30,059 bases of DNA from a virus. The position numbers were made by a program, and so were the translations under genes. This document shows, piece after piece, positions 14,510 to 30,025 of the stretch. The stretch lies in the IMG/VR virus record IMGVR_UViG_3300045283_000230, positions 1 to 30,059 of that record; one strand, written 5' to 3'. Below the pieces are notes generated by a model that saw only the letters and a program-made list of their open reading frames with translations, was not told where the DNA came from and did no database searches. The number at the start of each line of letters is the position of its first letter. Positions within the stretch are counted from its first letter, which is position 1.

Positions 14510-14610
14510 TATCCCGCCGCATCAAGCCCAGCCCGGCGTGATCGAAAGAAAATTTCGGCTGTGTGCGGGATGCGCGGCCGGCGCCCACCAAAAAATCGAC
14601 CCCCCCACCA
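14510..14610. other. 101-bp gap between HNH and small terminase genes
   Basis: No ORF is seen. The segment is less GC-rich than its surroundings, with runs AAAGAAAATTT and CAAAAAAT and an imperfect dyad CGAAA-5-TTTCG at 14543-14557. In phages with HNH next to the terminase genes, the cos site or a late promoter often lies nearby, so this is the best positional candidate for either. No sequence proof is available. Confidence 0.35.
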
Positions 14611-14898
14611 TCAGAAACGCGTCACATAGTCGGCCATCGTGTCGCGATAACGGAACGCGCGACGCGCGTTCGTCCGCTCGGCGCCACCCCGGCTGTTGCA
14701 GGCACGGCACGCGGCCCTCAGGTTGGTGGTATCCCACACGCTGCCGCCGTCGGCCCGGGCCACGATGTGATCCACCTCGGTGGCCGCCTTGGTGCAGTGC
14801 GGTCCACGCATCTGGCACAGCCACCGGTCCCGGTCGAGCACGGCCAGGCGCAGCGCCCGGTAGGCGCTGCTCGTCAACCTGGCGTCCCTGGTAGTCAC
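14611..14898 (-). CDS. HNH endonuclease
   Basis: The 95-residue protein is a small HNH nuclease of the type that works with terminase at cohesive-end packaging sites. Zinc ligands are probably C28, C35, C64 and C67. The HNH core is VDHIVARADGG (D43, H44), with N59 in WDTTNLRAACRACNSRGG and N68 following CRAC. GTG at 14898 overlaps the stop of the preceding membrane-protein gene (GTGA). It lies immediately upstream of the terminase genes, which supports a packaging role rather than a homing one. Confidence 0.88.
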   Translation of the reverse strand: MTTRDARLTSSAYRALRLAVLDRDRWLCQMRGPHCTKAATEVDHIVARADGGSVWDTTNLRAACRACNSRGGAERTNARRAFRYRDTMADYVTRF

Positions 14899-15268: not shown

Positions 15269-15820
15269 CTACCCATCATTCTGGTTGTTGTCGCGGGCGT
15301 GGCGGGCGGCGGTCCAGTCGACGATGACCCCGGATCCGGACAGGTGGAGAGGGGGTGGCGCGGCACTGGGGGTGAGGGTCTGGTCCGGGGCAAGCGCCCG
15401 CCCGCCTTTCGCGGGGCGGGCGGCGCGCTTGCTTGACCGTCTTACTTCGTAAACGGTCCGTGCGCGATTCTGAGCGTCAAATCGCGCGCTAGGGGTGCGA
15501 AGCTGAGCGTCGTTTCGCGCGCTAATCGGGTTTGCGCGCGAATTTCGCGCGCTAGCGAAGTTATCCCCAAGGCTGTAGACGGTCTGGGCCCGGCCGTTTC
15601 CGGGTTTGGTGACGGTCAGCCAGCCGCCGGCGACGGCGGCGGCGAGGAGCTGGCGCAGCCCGTAGCTGGACACCCAGCAGCGTTCCATGAGCAGCCGCTG
15701 GCCGACCTTGGCGTAGTGGCCGTCGGCGTCGGCGGCTTCGGCGATGACGGCGCAGAGCCGCCACAGCTCGGGATCCTGGGGTCCGTGCAGGCACACGTCC
15801 CGGTTGGCCTGCCAGCTCAC
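15269..15820 (-). CDS. Winged-helix replication initiator-like protein with iteron-like repeats in its gene
   Basis: The 183-residue protein has an N-terminal winged-helix region: DPELWRLCAVIAEAADADG, then HYAKVGQRLLMERCWVSSYG and a wing GGWLTVTKPGNGRAQTVYSL. This is the layout of small replication initiators such as Rep_O-like proteins. The middle (about 90-120) holds three repeats of the form SAR-x-D/S-A/R-Q encoded by direct DNA repeats, and the C-terminus is disordered. GTG at 15820 overlaps the DnaA-like gene's stop (GTGA). GTG at 15823 is an alternative. A transcription regulator is possible. Its pairing with a DnaA-domain gene favours replication. Confidence 0.6.
   Translation of the reverse strand: MSWQANRDVCLHGPQDPELWRLCAVIAEAADADGHYAKVGQRLLMERCWVSSYGLRQLLAAAVAGGWLTVTKPGNGRAQTVYSLGDNFASARNSRANPISARNDAQLRTPSARFDAQNRARTVYEVRRSSKRAARPAKGGRALAPDQTLTPSAAPPPLHLSGSGVIVDWTAARHARDNNQNDG
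15464..15554. repeat. Iteron-like direct repeats and 19-bp palindrome inside the winged-helix gene
   Basis: Two 28-bp units, 15464-15491 and 15497-15524, are 23/28 identical and 33 bp apart, each ending in TCGCGCGCTA. A third TCGCGCGCTA lies at 15545-15554. A perfect 9-bp-arm palindrome GCGCGCGAA-T-TTCGCGCGC occupies 15534-15552. The repeats keep the reading frame. Repeats inside an initiator gene are a known layout for phage origins (lambda O), so an origin is plausible. Confidence 0.6.
15561..15569 (+). promoter_or_regulatory. DnaA-box-like nonamer
   Basis: TTATCCCCA differs from the classical DnaA box TTATCCACA at one base and starts six bases after the last iteron-like repeat. It lies in coding sequence, so it could be chance. 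It is of interest only because a DnaA DNA-binding domain is encoded next door. Confidence 0.35.
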
Positions 15821-16122
15821 CACAGGCTGCCTTGGCCGTTGAGGTACAGCCGGGCGCGCAGCTGGTCCACCGCGGCCGGGTCGGCCGTCCGGGCCTGGGT
15901 CAAGGCGGTGGTGTGATGGTGGTTCATGATCTTGCCGACACCCGGCCAGCTGAGACGGGCTTCGTCGTGGAGGAGCTGGTAGGCGACACGACGGGCTTCG
16001 CCGCGGGGCCGGATCTGACCGTGCGAGATCAGGTCGGCGACGGTGATGCTGTAGGCGGCGGCCACCAGGTCGAGTATCCGGGCCGGCGGAATAGGGAAGA
16101 CGTGTGGCAGGTCACTTGGCAT
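15817..16122 (-). CDS. Stand-alone DnaA domain IV (DNA-binding) protein
   Basis: The 101-residue protein matches the C-terminal DNA-binding domain of DnaA with no ATPase part: ILDLVAAAYSITVADLISHG, then RPRGEARRVAYQLLHDEARL, GVGKIMN and the signature HHHTTALTQAR (about 68-78). Where bacterial DnaA usually has Asp before His-Thr-Thr (E. coli D433-H434-T435-T436), this protein has His, so its box preference may differ. ATG at 16122 is chosen for the AGGGGGG ribosome site. It may recruit host initiation factors to the phage origin, or act as a regulator binding DnaA-box-like sites. Confidence 0.85.
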   Translation of the reverse strand: MPSDLPHVFPIPPARILDLVAAAYSITVADLISHGQIRPRGEARRVAYQLLHDEARLSWPGVGKIMNHHHTTALTQARTADPAAVDQLRARLYLNGQGSLW

Positions 16123-16157: not shown

Positions 16158-16493
16158 TTAGCGCAGGGTGCGGACGATGTCGTCCAGGTCGGATGGCCGC
16201 CACAGGTGGACTTCGACGCCGGGGCATTGGCGTAACAGCTCGAGCCAGCGCAACTGCTCAGGGCTGCACCCATGGTCGGGTCGTTTCCAGGCGACCTCGG
16301 ATTTGAGCTCGGCGAACACAACCCGCGGCGGGCGGCACAGTGTCTCGTCGGGGAACCCGGCCGGGCTGTAGTCGGAACGGTGGGTGTGGTATCGCTGCCA
16401 GCCGAACATGGCGGCCAGGTCGCGGATGGCGCGGGCCAGGTCTTTCTCGGTTTGGGGCAGCCGGCCGCCGGGCAGCGCACGCGGGGTGCTCAT
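16158..16493 (-). CDS. VRR-NUC domain nuclease
   Basis: The 111-residue protein is a minimal VRR-NUC nuclease (PD-(D/E)xK fold): HTHRSDYSPAGFPDETLCR supplies the metal-binding Asp, VVFAELKSEVAW the ExK pair, and SPEQLRWLELLRQCPGVEV followed by LWRPSDLDDI the conserved end. Phage versions are thought to process DNA structures in replication or recombination. ATG at 16493 overlaps the stop of the previous gene (ATGA), so the longer open frame is discarded. Confidence 0.85.
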   Translation of the reverse strand: MSTPRALPGGRLPQTEKDLARAIRDLAAMFGWQRYHTHRSDYSPAGFPDETLCRPPRVVFAELKSEVAWKRPDHGCSPEQLRWLELLRQCPGVEVHLWRPSDLDDIVRTLR

Positions 16494-17514: not shown

Positions 17515-17931
17515 TCAGTCCCTATCTTGGGAGTCCCTATCTTGGGGTTCTGTGTAGGTCTGTTCTTCCGCATAACGGTGCTTATCGGTAGGGGCCAGCT
17601 CGGCGAGGGTCGGTACCGCCGTGATCCACCAATGCTCCGGGTCACCGAACGATTCCAGATCCGCTATGACCTCAGCCGGGGCCGCCGCTCGAGTCGCCGA
17701 ACCGAACCACGGCACGCAACGTTCCGGTTGGAGCACCCGGTAGCGGTACGCCATGCGGTCGCAATGCTGAAAGTTCATCGTGAGCCCGGTGCGCTCCCGG
17801 TCGGGGGCTGCCTCGGTCGTCAGCCAGATCACCTTTGCGCCCAGGAGCGGATGAGCGATCGGCGCCACCAGCAGGCCGCGCTTGCCGAGGGCGCGCCGAC
17901 CGTGCTCGCAGGTGAAGTGCCACAAGGTCAT
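17515..17931 (-). CDS. Conserved phage hypothetical protein
   Basis: The 138-residue protein begins MTLWHFTCEHGRRALGKRG and continues with HPLLGAKVIWLTTEAAPDRE, FQHCDRMAYRYRV and GDPEHWWITAVPT. The pattern is familiar from hypothetical proteins of actinophages and actinobacteria. The HFTxxHG start resembles folds that include ADP-ribosyltransferase-like proteins, but this is weak. The last residues are a duplicated QDRDS unit caused by a 15-bp tandem repeat (17518-17547). ATG at 17931 overlaps the previous stop (ATGA). Confidence 0.7.
   Translation of the reverse strand: MTLWHFTCEHGRRALGKRGLLVAPIAHPLLGAKVIWLTTEAAPDRERTGLTMNFQHCDRMAYRYRVLQPERCVPWFGSATRAAAPAEVIADLESFGDPEHWWITAVPTLAELAPTDKHRYAEEQTYTEPQDRDSQDRD
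17518..17547. repeat. 15-bp tandem duplication at a gene 3' end
   Basis: The sequence GTCCCTATCTTGGG is present twice in a row, 15 bp apart (17518 and 17533), inside the last codons of the 138-residue protein. It is in frame and duplicates five residues. It looks like a recent slipped-strand event. Confidence 0.8.
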
Positions 17932-18263
17932 TCGGTGCCCACCCAGCGGACATAGATGGCGGACTGCCCGACTTCAGACAGCCGGCGGGCTTCCCACTGC
18001 CAGGCTGTGCGGGAGTGGGCGTCACGTAGCCGTTTGAGGTTCATGGCGGCCTGGCGGTCCTTGAAGAAGAGCACGACGCGGAACCAGTCGCGGTCCTGGG
18101 ATACCAAGATCTCCTCGAGCAGCGGGCGCACCAGCTCGGTGAGCTTCGGCTGGGTCGGCTTGACCAGCGGCGGCGGGTCGGCCTTGACGAGGCGGACGAC
18201 AGGCAAGCGTTTGTCTCGTGGTACCGGCTCGGGCTCGGGCTCGGCTGCGCGCACGCGCGCCAT
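17928..18263 (-). CDS. Split paralog, C-terminal half
   Basis: This 111-residue ORF is a clear paralog of the C-terminal part of the 175-residue protein at 19891..20418: shared elements include RPLLEEILVxQDRDW, VVLFFKxRQAxMNLKRLRDA and SAIYVRW. Here it lies in a different frame from the zinc-binding half (18022..18444). The shift arises near a GAGCCC hexamer repeat, where this copy is 14 bases shorter than the other. An ATG at 18263 with AAGGG just upstream could let it be made alone. Its stop overlaps the next start (ATGA). Confidence 0.7.
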   Translation of the reverse strand: MARVRAAEPEPEPVPRDKRLPVVRLVKADPPPLVKPTQPKLTELVRPLLEEILVSQDRDWFRVVLFFKDRQAAMNLKRLRDAHSRTAWQWEARRLSEVGQSAIYVRWVGTE

Positions 18264-18444
18264 TGGCCCTTGCTGCAGCTGGCTTGATGCGGGTGGGCTG
18301 CGCGTCCTGACGCGCGCCGTCGTGGCATTCGCAGGCGCATCGCATCTTGAGGTCGCGGCAGGTCTTGTGGTTCCCGTCCCGGCACATCGACGACAGCGAC
18401 GAGCGCAGAACCCGCCCGTTGGCCACGCTTGCGCTCTCAGTCAC
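18022..18444 (-). CDS. Split paralog, N-terminal zinc-binding half
   Basis: The 140-residue open frame is real only for about the first 75 residues, which match the first part of the protein at 19891..20418: SSLSSMCRDGNHKTCRDLKM followed by RCACECH, a compact Cys/His cluster likely to bind zinc. After the point where the sister copy continues in frame, this one reads into Arg/Ala/Pro-rich noise. GTG at 18444 overlaps the previous stop (GTGA). It is either a shortened zinc protein plus a separate C-terminal ORF, or a recently broken gene. Confidence 0.6.
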   Translation of the reverse strand: MTESASVANGRVLRSSLSSMCRDGNHKTCRDLKMRCACECHDGARQDAQPTRIKPAAARANGARARSRARARAGTTRQTLACRPPRQGRPAAAGQADPAEAHRAGAPAARGDLGIPGPRLVPRRALLQGPPGRHEPQTAT

Positions 18445-19737: not shown

Positions 19738-19894
19738 CTTCGACCTCCCGGTGCCAGGCGCGGTGGATGTCGCGGGATTCGACGCCGGCGGTGAGACAGC
19801 CGCAGTAGCTGCAACGCCATACCTCGATGTCGTCCCAGGGTGCGAGCACGCCGACGAGATCGAAGGAGTGGCCGCGTTTTTCGGTGTCGCTCAT
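19730..19894 (-). CDS. 54-residue C2H2-like zinc finger protein
   Basis: This short ORF begins MSDTEKRGHSFDLVGVLAPW. Its second half has C-x2-C-x12-H-x3-H spacing (CSYC ... HRAWH), the spacing of a classical C2H2 zinc finger. ATG at 19894 overlaps the stop of the upstream paralog gene (ATGA), and its stop overlaps the start of the next gene by eight bases. The joints at both ends make it a convincing gene despite its size. DNA or protein binding is likely but untested. Confidence 0.75.
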   Translation of the reverse strand: MSDTEKRGHSFDLVGVLAPWDDIEVWRCSYCGCLTAGVESRDIHRAWHREVEGV

Positions 19895-20418
19895 GTTCCG
19901 TTTCCGATCCAGCGGACGTAGATGGCGGACTGGTCAACCTCGGGCAGCTGCCGGGCCTCCCACTGCCAGAGGCCGCGGGAGTGGGCATCGCGGAGCCGTT
20001 TGAGGTTCATGGACGCCTGGCGGGCCTTGAAGAACAGCACCACCCGATACCAGTCACGGTCTTGCATGACCAGGATCTCCTCGAGGAGCGGCCGGACCTG
20101 CTCGGCCAGCGTGACCCGGGGCGGGTTCGGTTTGGGGGGCGGGTCGGCTTTGACCAGCTGGATGACCGGCACCTTGTTCCCGACCGGCAGCACTTTCGGC
20201 TCGGGCTCAGCGGTGCGCGTCTTAACGCGCGTCCGCGCCCGATTGACCTGTGCCGCAGCTGGTGTGATGCGGACAGGCTGGGCGTCCTGAGGGTTATGGC
20301 ATTCGCAGGCGCAGCGCATCTTCAGATCGCGGCAGGTTTTGTGGTTCCCGTCCCGGCACATCGATGACAGCGACTGGCGGGGCACGCGGCCCTCGGCGAG
20401 CTGCTCGGCGACGACCAT
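19891..20418 (-). CDS. Zinc-binding two-domain protein (intact paralog)
   Basis: The 175-residue protein joins an N-terminal Cys/His cluster (MCRDGNHKTCRDLKMRCACE plus CH, about residues 20-41), a Pro/Lys-rich linker and a C-terminal domain with RPLLEEILVMQDRDWYRVVL, RQASMNLKRLRDAHSRG and DQSAIYVRWIG. A split second copy lies 1.4 kb downstream at 17928-18444. ATG at 20418 shares one base with the RecT-like gene's stop (TGATG). A role next to recombination is suggested only by position. Confidence 0.75.
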   Translation of the reverse strand: MVVAEQLAEGRVPRQSLSSMCRDGNHKTCRDLKMRCACECHNPQDAQPVRITPAAAQVNRARTRVKTRTAEPEPKVLPVGNKVPVIQLVKADPPPKPNPPRVTLAEQVRPLLEEILVMQDRDWYRVVLFFKARQASMNLKRLRDAHSRGLWQWEARQLPEVDQSAIYVRWIGNGT

Positions 20419-21488
20419 CAGAACGGCCGGCCCGGGTCGTCAGACGCGTAAGACGCGTAACCTCTGGCCTCGGGCGAGTTGTCGTACACCTCGACGGGCG
20501 GGCGTTCGTCCCCGGCCACGCGGACATGGCCGCTGCCGGGTTGCGGCACGTCAGGAGGCGGCGGATCCTCCACAGACACGGGGCCGGGGACAGTAGGCGC
20601 CCCCACCCGGGCGCGGTTCATGGCCTCGAAGAGCACCATTTCGACGTCGACGCCGAGGACCCGGGCCTCCGTCTCGGCGACGAGCCGCTCGAGGAGCGCG
20701 GCGTGGGCGGCGGTGAAACGGGCCGAGCGGAGGTTCGGGACTTTCATCGGGTGCACGACCGCGCCGAGAGCGTCGCGCTGCTCGTCGGTGAGCGCCTCGA
20801 CGCGCACGATCAACTTCGCCCGCGTCTCGGGGTCGACCTCGGGTTCGCGCAGATGCTCGGGGATGGTGGCCCCCGACGGCCCGACCGATCGGGGCGGCAC
20901 CAGACGGGAGCCCTCCGCAGCCGTCTCCCCCATGTCTGCGGAGGACTCCTCGTCGAGCTCGGCGACATGGGCGGCGGGGGCGGCGATGCCGACCAGGGCG
21001 CCGGGGGCGTAGAGCGATATGGCTTTGGTGCAGGCCCGGGCGGCGAGCATGCGGTCGGGGATGAGCTCGTAGTTGGACGGCACGTCGGCTTTTTTCCGGT
21101 TGGTCCAGCCGGCCCGTTTGGCGTCGGCCATGGTGACGGTCACGGCCGGTTTCCACTGGCGATCGCCGGCGCGGCGGATCCGGACGGTGGCCGCGTCGGC
21201 GGTGGATTCGACGACCTCGAGGTCCCAGCCGGCCCGGGCGATGAGGGCCCGCTGCAGTTCGGCCATGATGCCGACGCGGCCTTTGATGACATACACGGCG
21301 GGCAGATTCGGGACGGGAGGAACCTCGAGGGCGTAAAGCCACATGCCCGCAAGCTGGAGGTCGGCGAGTTGGACGTGCCCGTCTTTGTCTTTGAATTGGG
21401 CGGGCACCATGGAGGCGGGCCGCCAGGTGGCGACGGCCCGGTCGACAGGGTCGATGCCGGTGGGCGTCCAGCGTTCAAGGTTGGTCAT
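20418..21488 (-). CDS. RecT-like single-strand annealing recombinase
   Basis: The 356-residue protein shows the layout of actinophage RecT-family proteins: LPAVYVIKGRVGIMAELQRA and LIARAGWDLEVVE, then VTMADAKRAGW followed by NYELIPDRMLAARACTKAIS and LYAPGALVGI. The C-terminal 170 residues are acidic and Pro-rich. RecT anneals single strands for homologous recombination and replication restart. No partner exonuclease (RecE or YqaJ) is apparent, although the VRR-NUC protein could serve. The gene starts the leftward early unit, with ATG at 21488. Confidence 0.75.
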   Translation of the reverse strand: MTNLERWTPTGIDPVDRAVATWRPASMVPAQFKDKDGHVQLADLQLAGMWLYALEVPPVPNLPAVYVIKGRVGIMAELQRALIARAGWDLEVVESTADAATVRIRRAGDRQWKPAVTVTMADAKRAGWTNRKKADVPSNYELIPDRMLAARACTKAISLYAPGALVGIAAPAAHVAELDEESSADMGETAAEGSRLVPPRSVGPSGATIPEHLREPEVDPETRAKLIVRVEALTDEQRDALGAVVHPMKVPNLRSARFTAAHAALLERLVAETEARVLGVDVEMVLFEAMNRARVGAPTVPGPVSVEDPPPPDVPQPGSGHVRVAGDERPPVEVYDNSPEARGYASYASDDPGRPF

Positions 21489-21544: not shown

Positions 21545-22372
21545 GTGCCGGCCATCGAGGGAACGCACGGCTACCTCCTCAAGCTCGAACGAGCAGAACA
21601 AGAACTCAATGCTCTGAGCACCGACATCAAGCGGTATGTCGAACGCGATCTCCATCCTGTTCCATCCGGAGGCCAACTTGATCTCAGGGCCGAGTGGAAC
21701 GTCATCAAGTGGAGCGGGGTGCTCGACCCCGATCCGATGTGGGGTGTCCGGCTCGGTGAAATCGTCCACAACTTGCGGTCGTCGCTCGACCACCTCGTCA
21801 CCAACTTCGTCATCCAGGGCACCGGAAACGCGCGACCCGACAAGGACACGGGTTTCCCGATTTTGGCGGAGGAGGGGAACTGGGTTGCCACATGTGAGCA
21901 AAGGAATCGAAAAACCGATCGGCCCTCCCCCATCGCCGGGGTTACTCCGGCGGCATTTGCGCTCATCAAGGCGGCGCAGCCGTTCAACCCGGGGAAGAAA
22001 GGTCAGAACGACCCGTTGTTCAAGCTGCACCGTCTCAACCTCGTGGACAAGCACCGAAGCCTCCACCTGGCCAAGGTCACAGCGGAACGGTCGGAGAATC
22101 TGACGATCGAACCCAGCTATGTGACTGCCCTCCAAGTTCGCTGGCCCAGGCATCCTTACGTCATTGAGAACGACGCAGAACTCGCTCGTGTGAAGATCGC
22201 CTTGACGGCGGTGCCAGAACCGGATGTGCAGATCAGCGTGAGCCCGATCATCCACACCGATGTGTGGTTCGGGGCGCTCAACCAGGACCCGATCGCGACC
22301 GTCCGCATGGTGGGCGAGGCCTTCAATGATGTGAGAGCGATCATTGAAGCCGGAATCGAACTCCTCGTTTAA
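21545..22372 (+). CDS. Rightward hypothetical protein, probable accessory (moron) gene
   Basis: This 275-residue gene is opposed to all its neighbours. It has IKWSGVLDPDPMWGVRLGEI followed by VHNLRSSLDHLVTNFVI, then FPILAEEGN and KLHRLNLVDKHRSLHLAKVT. The LGE(I)xHNLRSxLDHL motif occurs in actinobacterial chromosomal proteins of unknown function. Its base composition looks less GC-rich than the flanking genes, suggesting acquisition by transfer. It starts with GTG at 21545, probably leaderless. Phage exclusion or defence would fit the setting, but the sequence does not show it. Confidence 0.8.
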   Translation: MPAIEGTHGYLLKLERAEQELNALSTDIKRYVERDLHPVPSGGQLDLRAEWNVIKWSGVLDPDPMWGVRLGEIVHNLRSSLDHLVTNFVIQGTGNARPDKDTGFPILAEEGNWVATCEQRNRKTDRPSPIAGVTPAAFALIKAAQPFNPGKKGQNDPLFKLHRLNLVDKHRSLHLAKVTAERSENLTIEPSYVTALQVRWPRHPYVIENDAELARVKIALTAVPEPDVQISVSPIIHTDVWFGALNQDPIATVRMVGEAFNDVRAIIEAGIELLV

Positions 22373-26091: not shown

Positions 26092-27678
26092 TCAGCCGAA
26101 ATGGAGACGTGCGAGCGCGGCAGACACCATGGCAGCATCGTCGGGGTCCCACTTGCGGTTGTGGTAGCCGCCCGTATACGGGTCGACAAAGATGCTGATG
26201 CTGCGCAGGTTTAGCGCCTCGATGATGATCTCCCGGCGACATTCGACCGCCAGACCGTCCCAGGCGGCGGCCAGGGCGCCGGGCTGGCCGGCGTAGGGGG
26301 CCAGCATCGAACGCTCCGTGACGGTTGCGAGCTGGGCGGCGAGGTCCTCACGCTGAGCCTTGACTCCGCGGCTCACCGCGTCGTAGCGATCCTTGTCCCA
26401 ATGCTCGGGATCGTCGTCGGGAAGGAGCCAATGCCCGGTGGCCTCTTCTAGCTTGGCCTCGAGCATGGCCAGCCGGCCCTGTATAGCCGGGACATCGACG
26501 GCGGCCTGGGGCTTGATATAGGCACCCAGGTCCATCTCGTCGACCCAGACGATCACAGCCTCAGTGACGGCCTCCTCGACGGTGCCGGCGTCGATGTTCC
26601 CGCCGCCGCAGCGGGTGGTGCCGACGTGTTTCTTGCATGCCAGGGTGGGGCGGCCGGTCTTCATGCAGTGCCGCTCGAGGGAGTTGCCACAGCCGGCACA
26701 CTTGACCAGGCCGGTCAGCAGCGATAGCCGCCGCGGCCTGGCCTCAGGACCGCGGGGCCCTTTGCGGTTTCCGCCGCGGCGATCGATGGTGTGGATGACC
26801 TGCCAGTACCAGTCGGGTGGGCAAATGCCCTGGAAGTTGCCCGGTTTGATTTCGCCCTCGTCGGGGTTCTCTTCGCCGGGGTGCCATACGAGGCCGTAGT
26901 GGCGGGGTGTGGTCAGCAGGGATTTGACCGCCTGCACGTTCCAGCCTTTGGTGATCATGATCTCGCCGGTGCGCTGGTTGCGTAGACCGTCTCGTGAGCG
27001 GCCCACCCCGGCCGTGTTGAGGCGTACGGCGATGGTGTTCATGTTCTCACCGCCCAGAAACGATTCGATGGCTTGCCGTACGTGCCGGGCCTGGTCTTCG
27101 TTGATCTCGCTGCTGCCGTTCCACCCGAATGCCCGGGCGAGCGTGGGCAGACCTTCCCGGCGCCGGCGCCGGCGAGAGCGTTTGACCCGCTCGCTGATCT
27201 TGTCCGACTCTCGGGCGTTGCCCGAGACGATGCCCCGGGCGTGGTTGCGGCCGTCAGCGCTGCGCAGGTCGAACGGCACGGTTGAGGTGTGGGACTGGAC
27301 GATGATGGTCCGGCGGCCGCCCATGCGGGGGTCGCACATGTCGATGAGGTCCTCGAGCTCGCGCGGCTGGCGGAGCAGCCGGTCCATGTCCCAGAAGAGG
27401 ATGGCGTCGGCTTCGTCGTCGGCGAGCATGCGCATGGCGTCGGCGAAGATCTCGCGGACCCGGCGGGCGTAACGGCTGGCCGAGCGGTGAGGTTCGGCGA
27501 ATCGGGCCACGACCTCGGCGTCGGGCTGCTCGGCGATCCACTCGTCCATCTCGTAGAGCTGCTCGTCGGTACTGACCTCGTCGCCGAAGGGGTTAAGGCT
27601 GACCCGGGCGTAGAGAATCCAGCGGATTTTCCGCTTGGCCGGCACATAACGCTTGTTGGCCTCGACCGGTTCACTCAT
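26092..27678 (-). CDS. Large serine integrase
   Basis: The 528-residue protein integrates the phage genome into the host chromosome. The N-terminal resolvase-type domain has the catalytic Ser27 in WILYARVS and the DMDRLLR motif near 97-103. The recombinase domain follows (ARAFGWNGSS, then MNTIAVRLNTAGVGRSRDGL). The zinc ribbon is LVKCAGCGNSLERHCMKTGR plus CKK...TRC, and a coiled coil and C-terminal domain complete it. The length is normal for the family. ATG at 27678 is preferred because a TAGTAT -10 box ends seven bases upstream, fitting a leaderless start. The open frame goes back to 27729. Confidence 0.93.
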   Translation of the reverse strand: MSEPVEANKRYVPAKRKIRWILYARVSLNPFGDEVSTDEQLYEMDEWIAEQPDAEVVARFAEPHRSASRYARRVREIFADAMRMLADDEADAILFWDMDRLLRQPRELEDLIDMCDPRMGGRRTIIVQSHTSTVPFDLRSADGRNHARGIVSGNARESDKISERVKRSRRRRRREGLPTLARAFGWNGSSEINEDQARHVRQAIESFLGGENMNTIAVRLNTAGVGRSRDGLRNQRTGEIMITKGWNVQAVKSLLTTPRHYGLVWHPGEENPDEGEIKPGNFQGICPPDWYWQVIHTIDRRGGNRKGPRGPEARPRRLSLLTGLVKCAGCGNSLERHCMKTGRPTLACKKHVGTTRCGGGNIDAGTVEEAVTEAVIVWVDEMDLGAYIKPQAAVDVPAIQGRLAMLEAKLEEATGHWLLPDDDPEHWDKDRYDAVSRGVKAQREDLAAQLATVTERSMLAPYAGQPGALAAAWDGLAVECRREIIIEALNLRSISIFVDPYTGGYHNRKWDPDDAAMVSAALARLHFG

Positions 27679-27685
27679 CGCCTGC

Positions 27686-27691
27686 ATACTA
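27686..27691 (-). promoter_or_regulatory. Predicted -10 box of the integrase promoter
   Basis: TAGTAT (coding strand) matches TANNNT and lies seven bases before the ATG at 27678. It is flanked by half-sites CGGTTCAC (27667-27674) and CGGTTCAG (27692-27699), as expected for a repressed promoter. No clear -35. Confidence 0.5.
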
Positions 27692-27722
27692 CGGTTCAGG
27701 TTTCGGGTAGCCGACTTATACG

Positions 27723-27740
27723 AGTACATAGAGATGTACT
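27723..27740. repeat. AT-rich dyad upstream of the integrase
   Basis: AGTACAT-AGAG-ATGTACT is a perfect inverted repeat with 7-bp arms in an unusually AT-rich stretch of this genome. It lies just upstream of the integrase gene, where attP of serine-integrase phages is often found, so it may be part of attP or an operator. Confidence 0.65.
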
Positions 27741-28202: not shown

Positions 28203-28655
28203 ATGAAGACCCGCAGTTTGCTCATCGCGGGCCTGGCCGCCGCCAGCGTGGGCCTCGCCGCCTGCGGTACCGCCGGCGCCTCGAGCCCGACGAACCGCGC
28301 CGTCGCGGCCTGGTGGGATGCCAATCAGGTCGATTACCAGGCCATCCCCAAGAACCACACCGCCATCTCCAACGCGGCGGATGACCACGATTACGTCGGC
28401 GTGGCCGCCGCCTGCCGTACCCTCGGCGATGACGTCGCCACCCTTCAGGCTGATCCGCCTATCCCGGTCGAGTCGGCCAATGCCCCGTACCAGGCGGCTC
28501 TGCGGCTCGAGGCCAAGTCCGCGGTCGAGTGCCATGATGGCGCCTCGTCCGGGGATGACGCCGCTATCAAGGCCGCCACCGCCGATATCGGGGCGGCAGG
28601 CGACCAGTGGACTGCCGCTACATCGGCGCTTGATGCCGCCACCGGCGGCAGCTAG
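28203..28655 (+). CDS. Lipoprotein, probable lysogenic conversion or exclusion factor
   Basis: The 150-residue protein has a lipoprotein signal: MKTRSLLIAGLAAASVGLAA followed by the lipobox Cys (LAAC, residue 21). The mature part has HTAISNAADDHDYVGVAAAC, DPPIPVESANAPYQAALRLE and a final helical AAGDQWTAATSALDAATGG, similar in style to actinobacterial lipoproteins of unknown role. AAGG lies eight bases before ATG 28203. Lipoproteins on prophages commonly block superinfection, which would be consistent, but there is no direct evidence. Confidence 0.8.
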   Translation: MKTRSLLIAGLAAASVGLAACGTAGASSPTNRAVAAWWDANQVDYQAIPKNHTAISNAADDHDYVGVAAACRTLGDDVATLQADPPIPVESANAPYQAALRLEAKSAVECHDGASSGDDAAIKAATADIGAAGDQWTAATSALDAATGGS

Positions 28656-29194: not shown

Positions 29195-30025
29195 CTAGGT
29201 GACGGGAGCTGTCCACGCTGCCGCCCAGGTCTGCGGGCCGACCAGCCCGTCGACGCCGAGGCCTTTCTCGGCCTGGAACTGGGAGCACACGTTTTCGCTG
29301 TCGGGCCCGTAGCAGCCGTCGGCGGTTATGGTCCAGCCGCGGGCGGCCATCTGAGCTTGCCATGTTGCGACGTTCGCCTGATCCACGCCGCCGTAGTAGC
29401 CGGAATGGCAGTGTGGGTCGGGGGATGGCTGGCCGAGATAGTCGGCGGCCGGGTACGGAAACGGCACCGGCCCCGCCGCGGGTAGGGGAGTCGGCGGCGG
29501 GGCCGGCACTGGTTTACTTCCCGTCGCCATAGATAGCACCTGGTTGATGGGGAATGAGGGACCGCAGTCCCAGTGGCCGCCGCCCCAGGAGCCGAGGTCG
29601 GCGTGCTGGCAGACGCCGGCGGTGCCGCCCTGGGCCTGGTCGGCCGTCAGTTTGACGATGGGGATGCCGAAGGCGGCGGCTTCTTCGGCGATCCAGGCCG
29701 CCGTGTTGGCCAGCATCTGCGGGTGGGTGTTCCAGGTGGCGCTATCCCAGTCGGCGAAGGCGCACAGCTCGGCCTGCACCGCCACCGGGTTGGCGTTGGC
29801 GGCCGTCCAGGCTTTGTAGTCGCGGCGGACGTACTCGCCGACCGTGCCCGGGGTGTCGTCGATACCGACATGGGATGACACGCCGGAGGCGGGGTTGGCG
29901 AACCAGGCGCCCAGGTCGGCGATATTGGTGGCACCTTCGGCGGTGTGGATGACGATGAGGCGGACGGCGGCGCCGCCCCTCGAGCTGTAGTTGGGGGTGG
30001 GGTAGGCGACCCGGTTAAGTGTCAT
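29195..30025 (-). CDS. Endolysin: N-acetylmuramoyl-L-alanine amidase with peptidoglycan-binding domain
   Basis: The 276-residue protein should cut the amide bond between muramic acid and stem peptide. Residues 1-165 are an Amidase_2 domain: VRLIVIHTAEG (zinc His27), SHVGIDD, then CQHADLGSWGGGHWDCGPSF with His141 and Asp153 as further likely zinc ligands. A Pro-rich linker (about 172-195) leads to a C-terminal peptidoglycan-binding domain with WTITADGCYGPDSENVCSQF and VDGLVGPQTWAAAW. No signal peptide is seen, so release depends on the holins. The gene spans the circular join (start repeated at 93). Confidence 0.92.
   Translation of the reverse strand: MTLNRVAYPTPNYSSRGGAAVRLIVIHTAEGATNIADLGAWFANPASGVSSHVGIDDTPGTVGEYVRRDYKAWTAANANPVAVQAELCAFADWDSATWNTHPQMLANTAAWIAEEAAAFGIPIVKLTADQAQGGTAGVCQHADLGSWGGGHWDCGPSFPINQVLSMATGSKPVPAPPPTPLPAAGPVPFPYPAADYLGQPSPDPHCHSGYYGGVDQANVATWQAQMAARGWTITADGCYGPDSENVCSQFQAEKGLGVDGLVGPQTWAAAWTAPVT

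Follow-up and report, generated by a model that had tools for sequence, protein, structure and literature searches.

A probable lambda-O-like initiator gene with a putative replication origin inside it in a small soil actinobacterial virus

Where and how does DNA copying start in a small phage in which no polymerase, helicase or helicase loader gene is found? Replication origins in phages of actinobacteria are, to our knowledge, poorly mapped. The question is raised here by IMGVR_UViG_3300045283_000230, a 30,059-bp viral record with unlinked ends, analysed over its full length (hereafter the window) and derived from a small soil actinobacterial virus. A sequence-only reading had proposed a replication origin of the lambda O kind, located inside a winged-helix gene that overlaps a gene for a free DnaA DNA-binding domain. 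On comparative grounds, the gene at 15269-15823 is very likely a lambda-O-like initiator with the phage origin inside it and with use of the host machinery. This virus would very probably start copying its DNA inside its own initiator gene, as lambda does, and in many relatives the host machinery is probably recruited through host DnaA. The comparative repeats, the profiles and the enrichment of DnaA boxes uphold the in-gene origin; the parts of the proposal that fared less well are the window's own box, which is degenerate, and the role of the DnaA domain IV protein, whose gene was found in 3 of the 17 searched records (the window, L017 and L047).

Nearly all genes of the window are transcribed leftward (Table 1). 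The names of the terminase, portal, capsid, tail, lysin and holin genes are a reading of sequence and gene order and do not come from family matches. The small endonuclease neighbour recurs in L017 and, judged from its sequence, in L097. A nucleotide search of phage records with the window returned no match, and no host genome was found by searching with the DnaA domain IV protein or TerL. Two plus-strand genes run against the general direction, one at 21545-22372 in a low-GC stretch (275-aa protein, no Pfam match) and one at 28203-28655 with a lipoprotein-like product; both are possibly lysogeny cargo. A pair of similar genes lies at 17928-18444 and 19891-20418; the protein start of the left copy (SLSSMCRDGNHKTCRDLKMRCACECH) is out of frame with the remainder, so that this copy is either frameshifted or deliberately shifted.

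Table 1. Position of the genes and putative origin elements in the window
Feature	Position	Strand or direction	Remarks
Terminase, portal, capsid, tail genes	beyond HNH gene		named from sequence and gene order
HNH endonuclease	14611-14898	minus	Pfam HNH, E=4.4e-7; between origin gene and packaging genes
O-like replication initiator gene (putative)	15269-15823	minus	184 aa from GTG 15823
GC-rich 43-bp hairpin (predicted)	15390-15432	minus	after iterons, within reading frame
Iteron TAGCGCGCGATTTGACGCTCAGAATCGC (gene orientation)	15464-15491	minus	28-bp copy; has GCGCGATT/AATCGCGC arms
9-mer CGCTCAGAA	15468-15476	minus	common to linkers of L017, L047 and L063
Second iteron	15497-15524	minus	33 bp from first, 82% identical
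Palindrome GCGCGCGAA-T-TTCGCGCGC	15534-15552	minus	two perfect 9-bp arms, one central base
Third iteron core	15543-15554	minus	30 bp on, inside palindrome
Winged-helix domain, about residues 1-93	15545-15823	minus	AlphaFold2, block pLDDT 88-98
Weak DnaA-box-like 9-mer TTATCCCCA	15561-15569	plus	one mismatch; other side of iterons
DnaA domain IV protein, 101 aa	15817-16122	minus	Bac_DnaA_C, E=2.3e-8; DNA-binding domain alone, no AAA+
Small endonuclease gene	16158-16493	minus	phrog_93 endonuclease, E=2.3e-7; upstream, same module
RecT-like gene	20418-21488	leftward	
Regulator genes	between serine integrase and RecT-like gene in listed order		
Serine integrase	26092-27729	leftward	
Holin-like gene	after lysin-like gene in listed order		named from sequence and gene order
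Lysin-like gene	29195-30025	leftward	named from sequence and gene order

The product of the initiator gene had been read as a winged-helix protein, and its AlphaFold2 model agrees, with a mean pLDDT of about 90 or more over residues 1-90; the tail of some 75-90 residues beyond the winged helix is predicted to be mostly disordered. The best PDB structure matches include the plasmid initiator domains 4pql, 4pt7 and 5kbj (E=3.5e-4), many MarR-type regulators are also among the Foldseek matches, and a search of viral-protein structures gave matches to the O protein of phage Min27 and to Arthrobacter phage BlueFeather. Since the direct family match is weak (phrog_27344 'replication initiation protein', E=0.008), assignment to the O-like family relies on iterated profiles, which the window protein joins with E=8.6e-6 when cultured proteins are left out and with E=8.6e-14 when they are added, the latter being a post-iteration value to be read with care. 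Five relatives (L047, L070, L030, L033 and L050) match replication-initiation or O-like PHROGs. The window, L047 and L030 initiator proteins gave no tblastn match in phage records. The window protein ends in SGSGVIVDW, and a PGSG..DW-like motif also ends the L033, L047 and L009 proteins; a second kind of tail, with a CxxC..C-type possible zinc ribbon, is seen in L023, L030, L070, L074 and L082. These could be two different ways of touching the replication machinery of the host.

Both the 33-bp-spaced repeats and the perfect 19-bp palindrome that had been noticed inside this gene are there, together with a third iteron core (Table 1). The iterons occupy the DNA encoding the start of the linker, just past the winged helix, and their half-sites are palindromic (GCGCGAA/TTCGCGC). 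The 9-mer CGCTCAGAA occurs four times, each time in the linker of an initiator gene (the window, L017:1020, L047:2944 and L063:842), and nowhere outside linkers in the 252 kb of the 19 loci described below. When 2994 windows of 120 bp were scored for repeats, the top three all fell within 15441-15580. Conservation of the repeats beyond what the protein needs had been named as a check on the origin. When synonymous codons were re-drawn for the same protein, the observed repeat score was reached in 0.6% of trials (p=0.006), so the repeats of the window are constrained as DNA and not through the protein alone; the Arg codon CGA, which makes up 3.8% of Arg codons, is chosen in each TAGCGCGCGA copy. 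The downstream hairpin folds as single-strand DNA with z=-4.65, and none of 200 shuffles was as stable. No AT-rich tract was found beside the iterons of the window (maximum AT 0.47, p=0.67). A reading of the repeats as packaging (cos) sites is not favoured, because they stay in the initiator gene, which lies roughly 2 kb from the right end in cluster FE phages.

A search with TerL gave 80 related viral contigs, and iterated profiles recovered O-like winged-helix genes at 19 non-redundant loci including the window, usually upstream of HNH-TerS-TerL. Most of the linkers carry repeats whose sequence differs from locus to locus and whose position is kept, for instance CCCCTGTAA in L033, TGGGCCGATGGTCGGCCCA in L050, CCCCAACGCCAGGCGTTG in L070 and CCTCGGTCA..TGACCGAGG in L047. 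The synonymous-codon test, in which the codon usage of the window was applied to all 19 genes as an approximation, gave a combined p=2.5e-18, with p<0.01 individually in 11 genes; the repeats of L017, L023, L036 and L102 were not significant alone. The best inverted repeats of the linkers also outscored those elsewhere in the same loci (Fisher chi2 97.7, 38 df). Significant hairpins were obtained in 6 of the 7 loci folded, with window-like ones in L009, L017, L046, L047 and L070, and an AT-rich dip near the iterons is detected family-wide (Fisher p=7e-8).

The one-mismatch DnaA box reported earlier in the gene is present at 15561-15569 and is degenerate; since the window has 14 sites of this kind where 4.8 are expected, it carries little weight by itself, and we rejected it as stand-alone evidence of an origin. 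The window has no exact DnaA box. In the linkers taken together, with no motif chosen beforehand, the most enriched 7-mer was CTGTGGA, found in 11 of 19 linkers against 0.4 expected, and CCTGTGGA was found in 9 of them against 0.18 expected. By their sequence, both are the core of the DnaA box. Of the 19 linkers, 9 hold an exact TTDTCCACA site; the expectation is 0.26 when computed from the rest of the loci and 0.19 when the encoded proteins are taken as given. The L030 and L033 linkers have TTTTCCCCA, and in L009 (with a near-box), L017, L047 and L070 a hairpin flanks or encloses the box. L082 differs in that its exact DnaA box (TGTGGATAA) is immediately 5' of the point where the winged helix begins (1014), outside the linker.

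The earlier statement that the virus has no polymerase or helicase agrees with the family searches: DnaB_C had no match in 17 records, the IstB/DnaC type none in 13 (the window included in both), PolA none in 13, and AAA_25 none in 15, among them the window and the whole Yavru and BlueFeather genomes. No helicase or loader (P) neighbours the initiator among the called genes of the window. Viral contigs are possibly fragments, so that genes missing from them do not prove absence.

The gene that overlaps the initiator gene does encode a stand-alone DnaA DNA-binding domain, as proposed. Its product scores 34.4 bits against Pfam Bac_DnaA_C (gathering cut-off 31.5), and M. tuberculosis DnaA-DBD 3pvp, a structure bound to box DNA, is the best solved relative, with E=3.2e-5 in the sequence-profile search and TM 0.75 in the fold comparison. 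The domain IV fold of DnaA is thus present by Pfam, profile and fold comparison, whereas the AAA+ ATPase domain III of full DnaA is absent from this 101-aa protein. The basic loop of Bac_DnaA_C is kept. In the signature motif HTT is kept, and GRDHTT of DnaA is changed to NHHHTT in the window and to NRHQTT in L017, so that the sequence preference may have changed. The GTGA overlap was found as described: the TGA stop of the DnaA domain IV gene (15819-15817) overlaps GTG 15820-15818, and a second in-frame GTG lies at 15823; GTG 15820 is the likelier start of the initiator gene. L017 and L047, the two other contigs with the pair, share the GTGA junction, which suggests joint action of the two proteins, and in both the neighbouring putative origin contains an exact DnaA box. 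A phage Bac_DnaA_C domain is likewise found near an annealing protein in Pelagibacter phage HTVC024P, where gp26 has an N-terminal extension that the window protein lacks. This 184-aa protein of a marine phage (L085:3725-4279) is encoded downstream of a nuclease and the annealing protein; we rejected it as a second in-gene origin, as its gene has no clear iteron array.

Cultured phages carry a related gene. BlueFeather gp21 and gp17 of Yavru, Whytu and Piku, all Arthrobacter phages of cluster FE, are encoded by genes with in-gene repeats and two DnaA boxes each, and no strict DnaA box was found outside this gene in the genomes examined. Yavru, Whytu and Piku being closely related, these amount to about two independent cultured cases. 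As in the window, the winged-helix gene with its in-gene repeats and boxes lies upstream of an HNH gene; in cluster FE this is near the right genome end (roughly 2 kb away). It differs in having two exact boxes instead of one weak box, and in having MerR-like HTH genes there instead of a DnaA domain IV neighbour; the cluster FE genomes are also far smaller than the window and integrase-less. A KNG13 homologue was called a 'RepA-like replication initiator' in a 2026 note, and in the open-access literature on cluster FE phages this label alone is published, with no origin described (PMC13221704). The O-like genes of Galaxy, Jamun, KHumphrey and Soos have no DnaA box, and RRH1 orf17, a candidate cultured relative, was set aside for its weak repeat signal (p=0.03) and its lack of a box. 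Yavru gp17 matches O-like initiators of Pseudomonas phages, some of whose genes precede DnaC and DnaB, primase/helicase or protein P. The Pseudomonas O genes have in-gene repeats and no DnaA box, a suggestive contrast that concerns few phages.

The lambda origin has its iterons and AT-rich tract halfway along gene O (PMC7466680, PMC3985674), with DnaA-box-like sites only, near the pO promoter (PMC3985674). The window gene resembles O in its N-terminal winged helix, in the palindromic iterons of its central part and in its O-like family by profile. Unlike lambda, the window has no P or other loader gene that we could find, its initiator tail is short and predicted to be disordered, and many of its relatives have a consensus DnaA box inside the putative origin. 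The window also lacks the AT-rich tract, and for this reason we call it O-like and not a lambda origin proper. Compared with lambda, what appears new from sequence comparison is that no helicase or loader is found, that a DnaA box lies within the stretch in many phages, and that a free DnaA domain IV accompanies it in few. The initiators of iteron plasmids (staphylococcal-type RepA N-terminal domain; 4pql, 4pt7, 5kbj) bind iterons through a winged helix, as the window initiator would, and the likeness of the window initiator to plasmid RepA is purely structural (E=3.5e-4).

The simplest reading of these comparisons would be the lambda design minus its loader gene, to which many relatives have added a box for host DnaA. 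The winged helix would bind phage-specific palindromic iterons in the linker DNA; across the family, these iterons appear to be joined by a DnaA box, a hairpin and a tract rich in AT/purine. Initiator binding, in many relatives jointly with host DnaA, would open the DNA and bring in the host helicase, as no helicase, loader or polymerase gene of the phage's own is found. In the window, where the DnaA box looks degenerate, a stand-alone DnaA domain IV would be made from the overlapping frame just upstream and would most likely bind DnaA-box-like sites, either assisting initiation at the phage origin or competing at host oriC. That the two genes overlap favours joint action, and the rarity of the domain IV gene with the weakness of the window box keeps the competitor role alive. 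We tentatively propose, as a conjecture, a two-protein, loader-free initiation in which the O-like protein marks the iteron origin inside its gene and a DnaA domain IV that the phage acquired from an actinobacterial host acts at DnaA-box-like sites, drawing host DnaA and helicase to the phage origin or off oriC; the hairpin beside the box in relatives might be a helicase-loading or priming site.

Other functions can be considered for the two proteins. The winged-helix protein has many MarR-type structural neighbours, and palindromic sites near the binder's own gene are typical of regulators; it could be a transcription regulator whose in-gene palindromes are autoregulatory operators, with no origin at all. 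We hold this to be improbable: its relatives match replication-initiation and O-like families, homologues adjoin DnaC and DnaB, primase/helicase or P, DnaA boxes are enriched in the linkers, and the sites lie mid-gene and not at the gene start. A possible, if doubtful, reading of the DnaA domain IV protein makes it an inhibitor of host replication that acts on host oriC boxes, the O-like protein starting phage replication by itself. Such a role would suit a DNA-binding domain devoid of AAA+ and helicase-recruiting domains, its presence in few records when the O-like gene is general, and the degenerate box of the window. The GTGA coupling to the initiator gene in all three carriers and the exact boxes in the adjacent origins of L017 and L047 speak against it, and the changed recognition motif could mean another target.

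There is also little chance that the site, as a plasmid-like (RepA-type) origin, serves to maintain the prophage and is not the lytic origin. The best solved structure matches are indeed plasmid initiators, and RepA-like initiators serve mycobacterial extrachromosomal prophages (PMC7157519). But the window has a serine integrase, which makes integration the likelier lysogenic state, and homologues are found in lytic cluster FE phages (PMC8582311, PMC13221704). That the repeats are a mere by-product of a repetitive, disordered linker peptide would be most surprising. The 33- and 30-bp spacings are whole codons and the linker peptide itself repeats (SARNDAQ / SARFDAQ); yet the synonymous-codon test, for the window as for the combined genes, the rare CGA codons and the inverted repeats among the repeats all run counter to this explanation.

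Should the in-gene origin hold, it would be recognisable from sequence by its winged helix, in-gene iterons, hairpin and DnaA box, and it would explain how replication starts in 15-30-kb phages that have no helicase, loader or polymerase gene. Many such phages would be predicted to depend on host DnaA, which is testable in cultured Arthrobacter phages, and the free DnaA domain IV would be a natural tool for studying phage competition for the host initiator. For the RepA origin of mycobacterial prophages, a published study did not settle whether it is located within repA (PMC7157519).

GC skew, also named earlier as a check, did not discriminate. The local cumulative minimum of the window lies at about 14.5-15 kb, which also adjoins a cos-like terminus, and the relatives have no consistent minimum at the site; the skew minimum was therefore rejected as origin evidence. 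Lastly, more than 20 related contigs, L008, L011, L014, L019, L025 and L031 among them, begin 381-438 bp upstream of TerL, and many of these starts resemble GTCNNTTTTTGTGTCC; the window counterpart is GTCGATTTTTTGG at 14600 on the minus strand. This recurrent contig start near TerL (about 14600 in the window) has the appearance of a cos end, where the mature genome would terminate.
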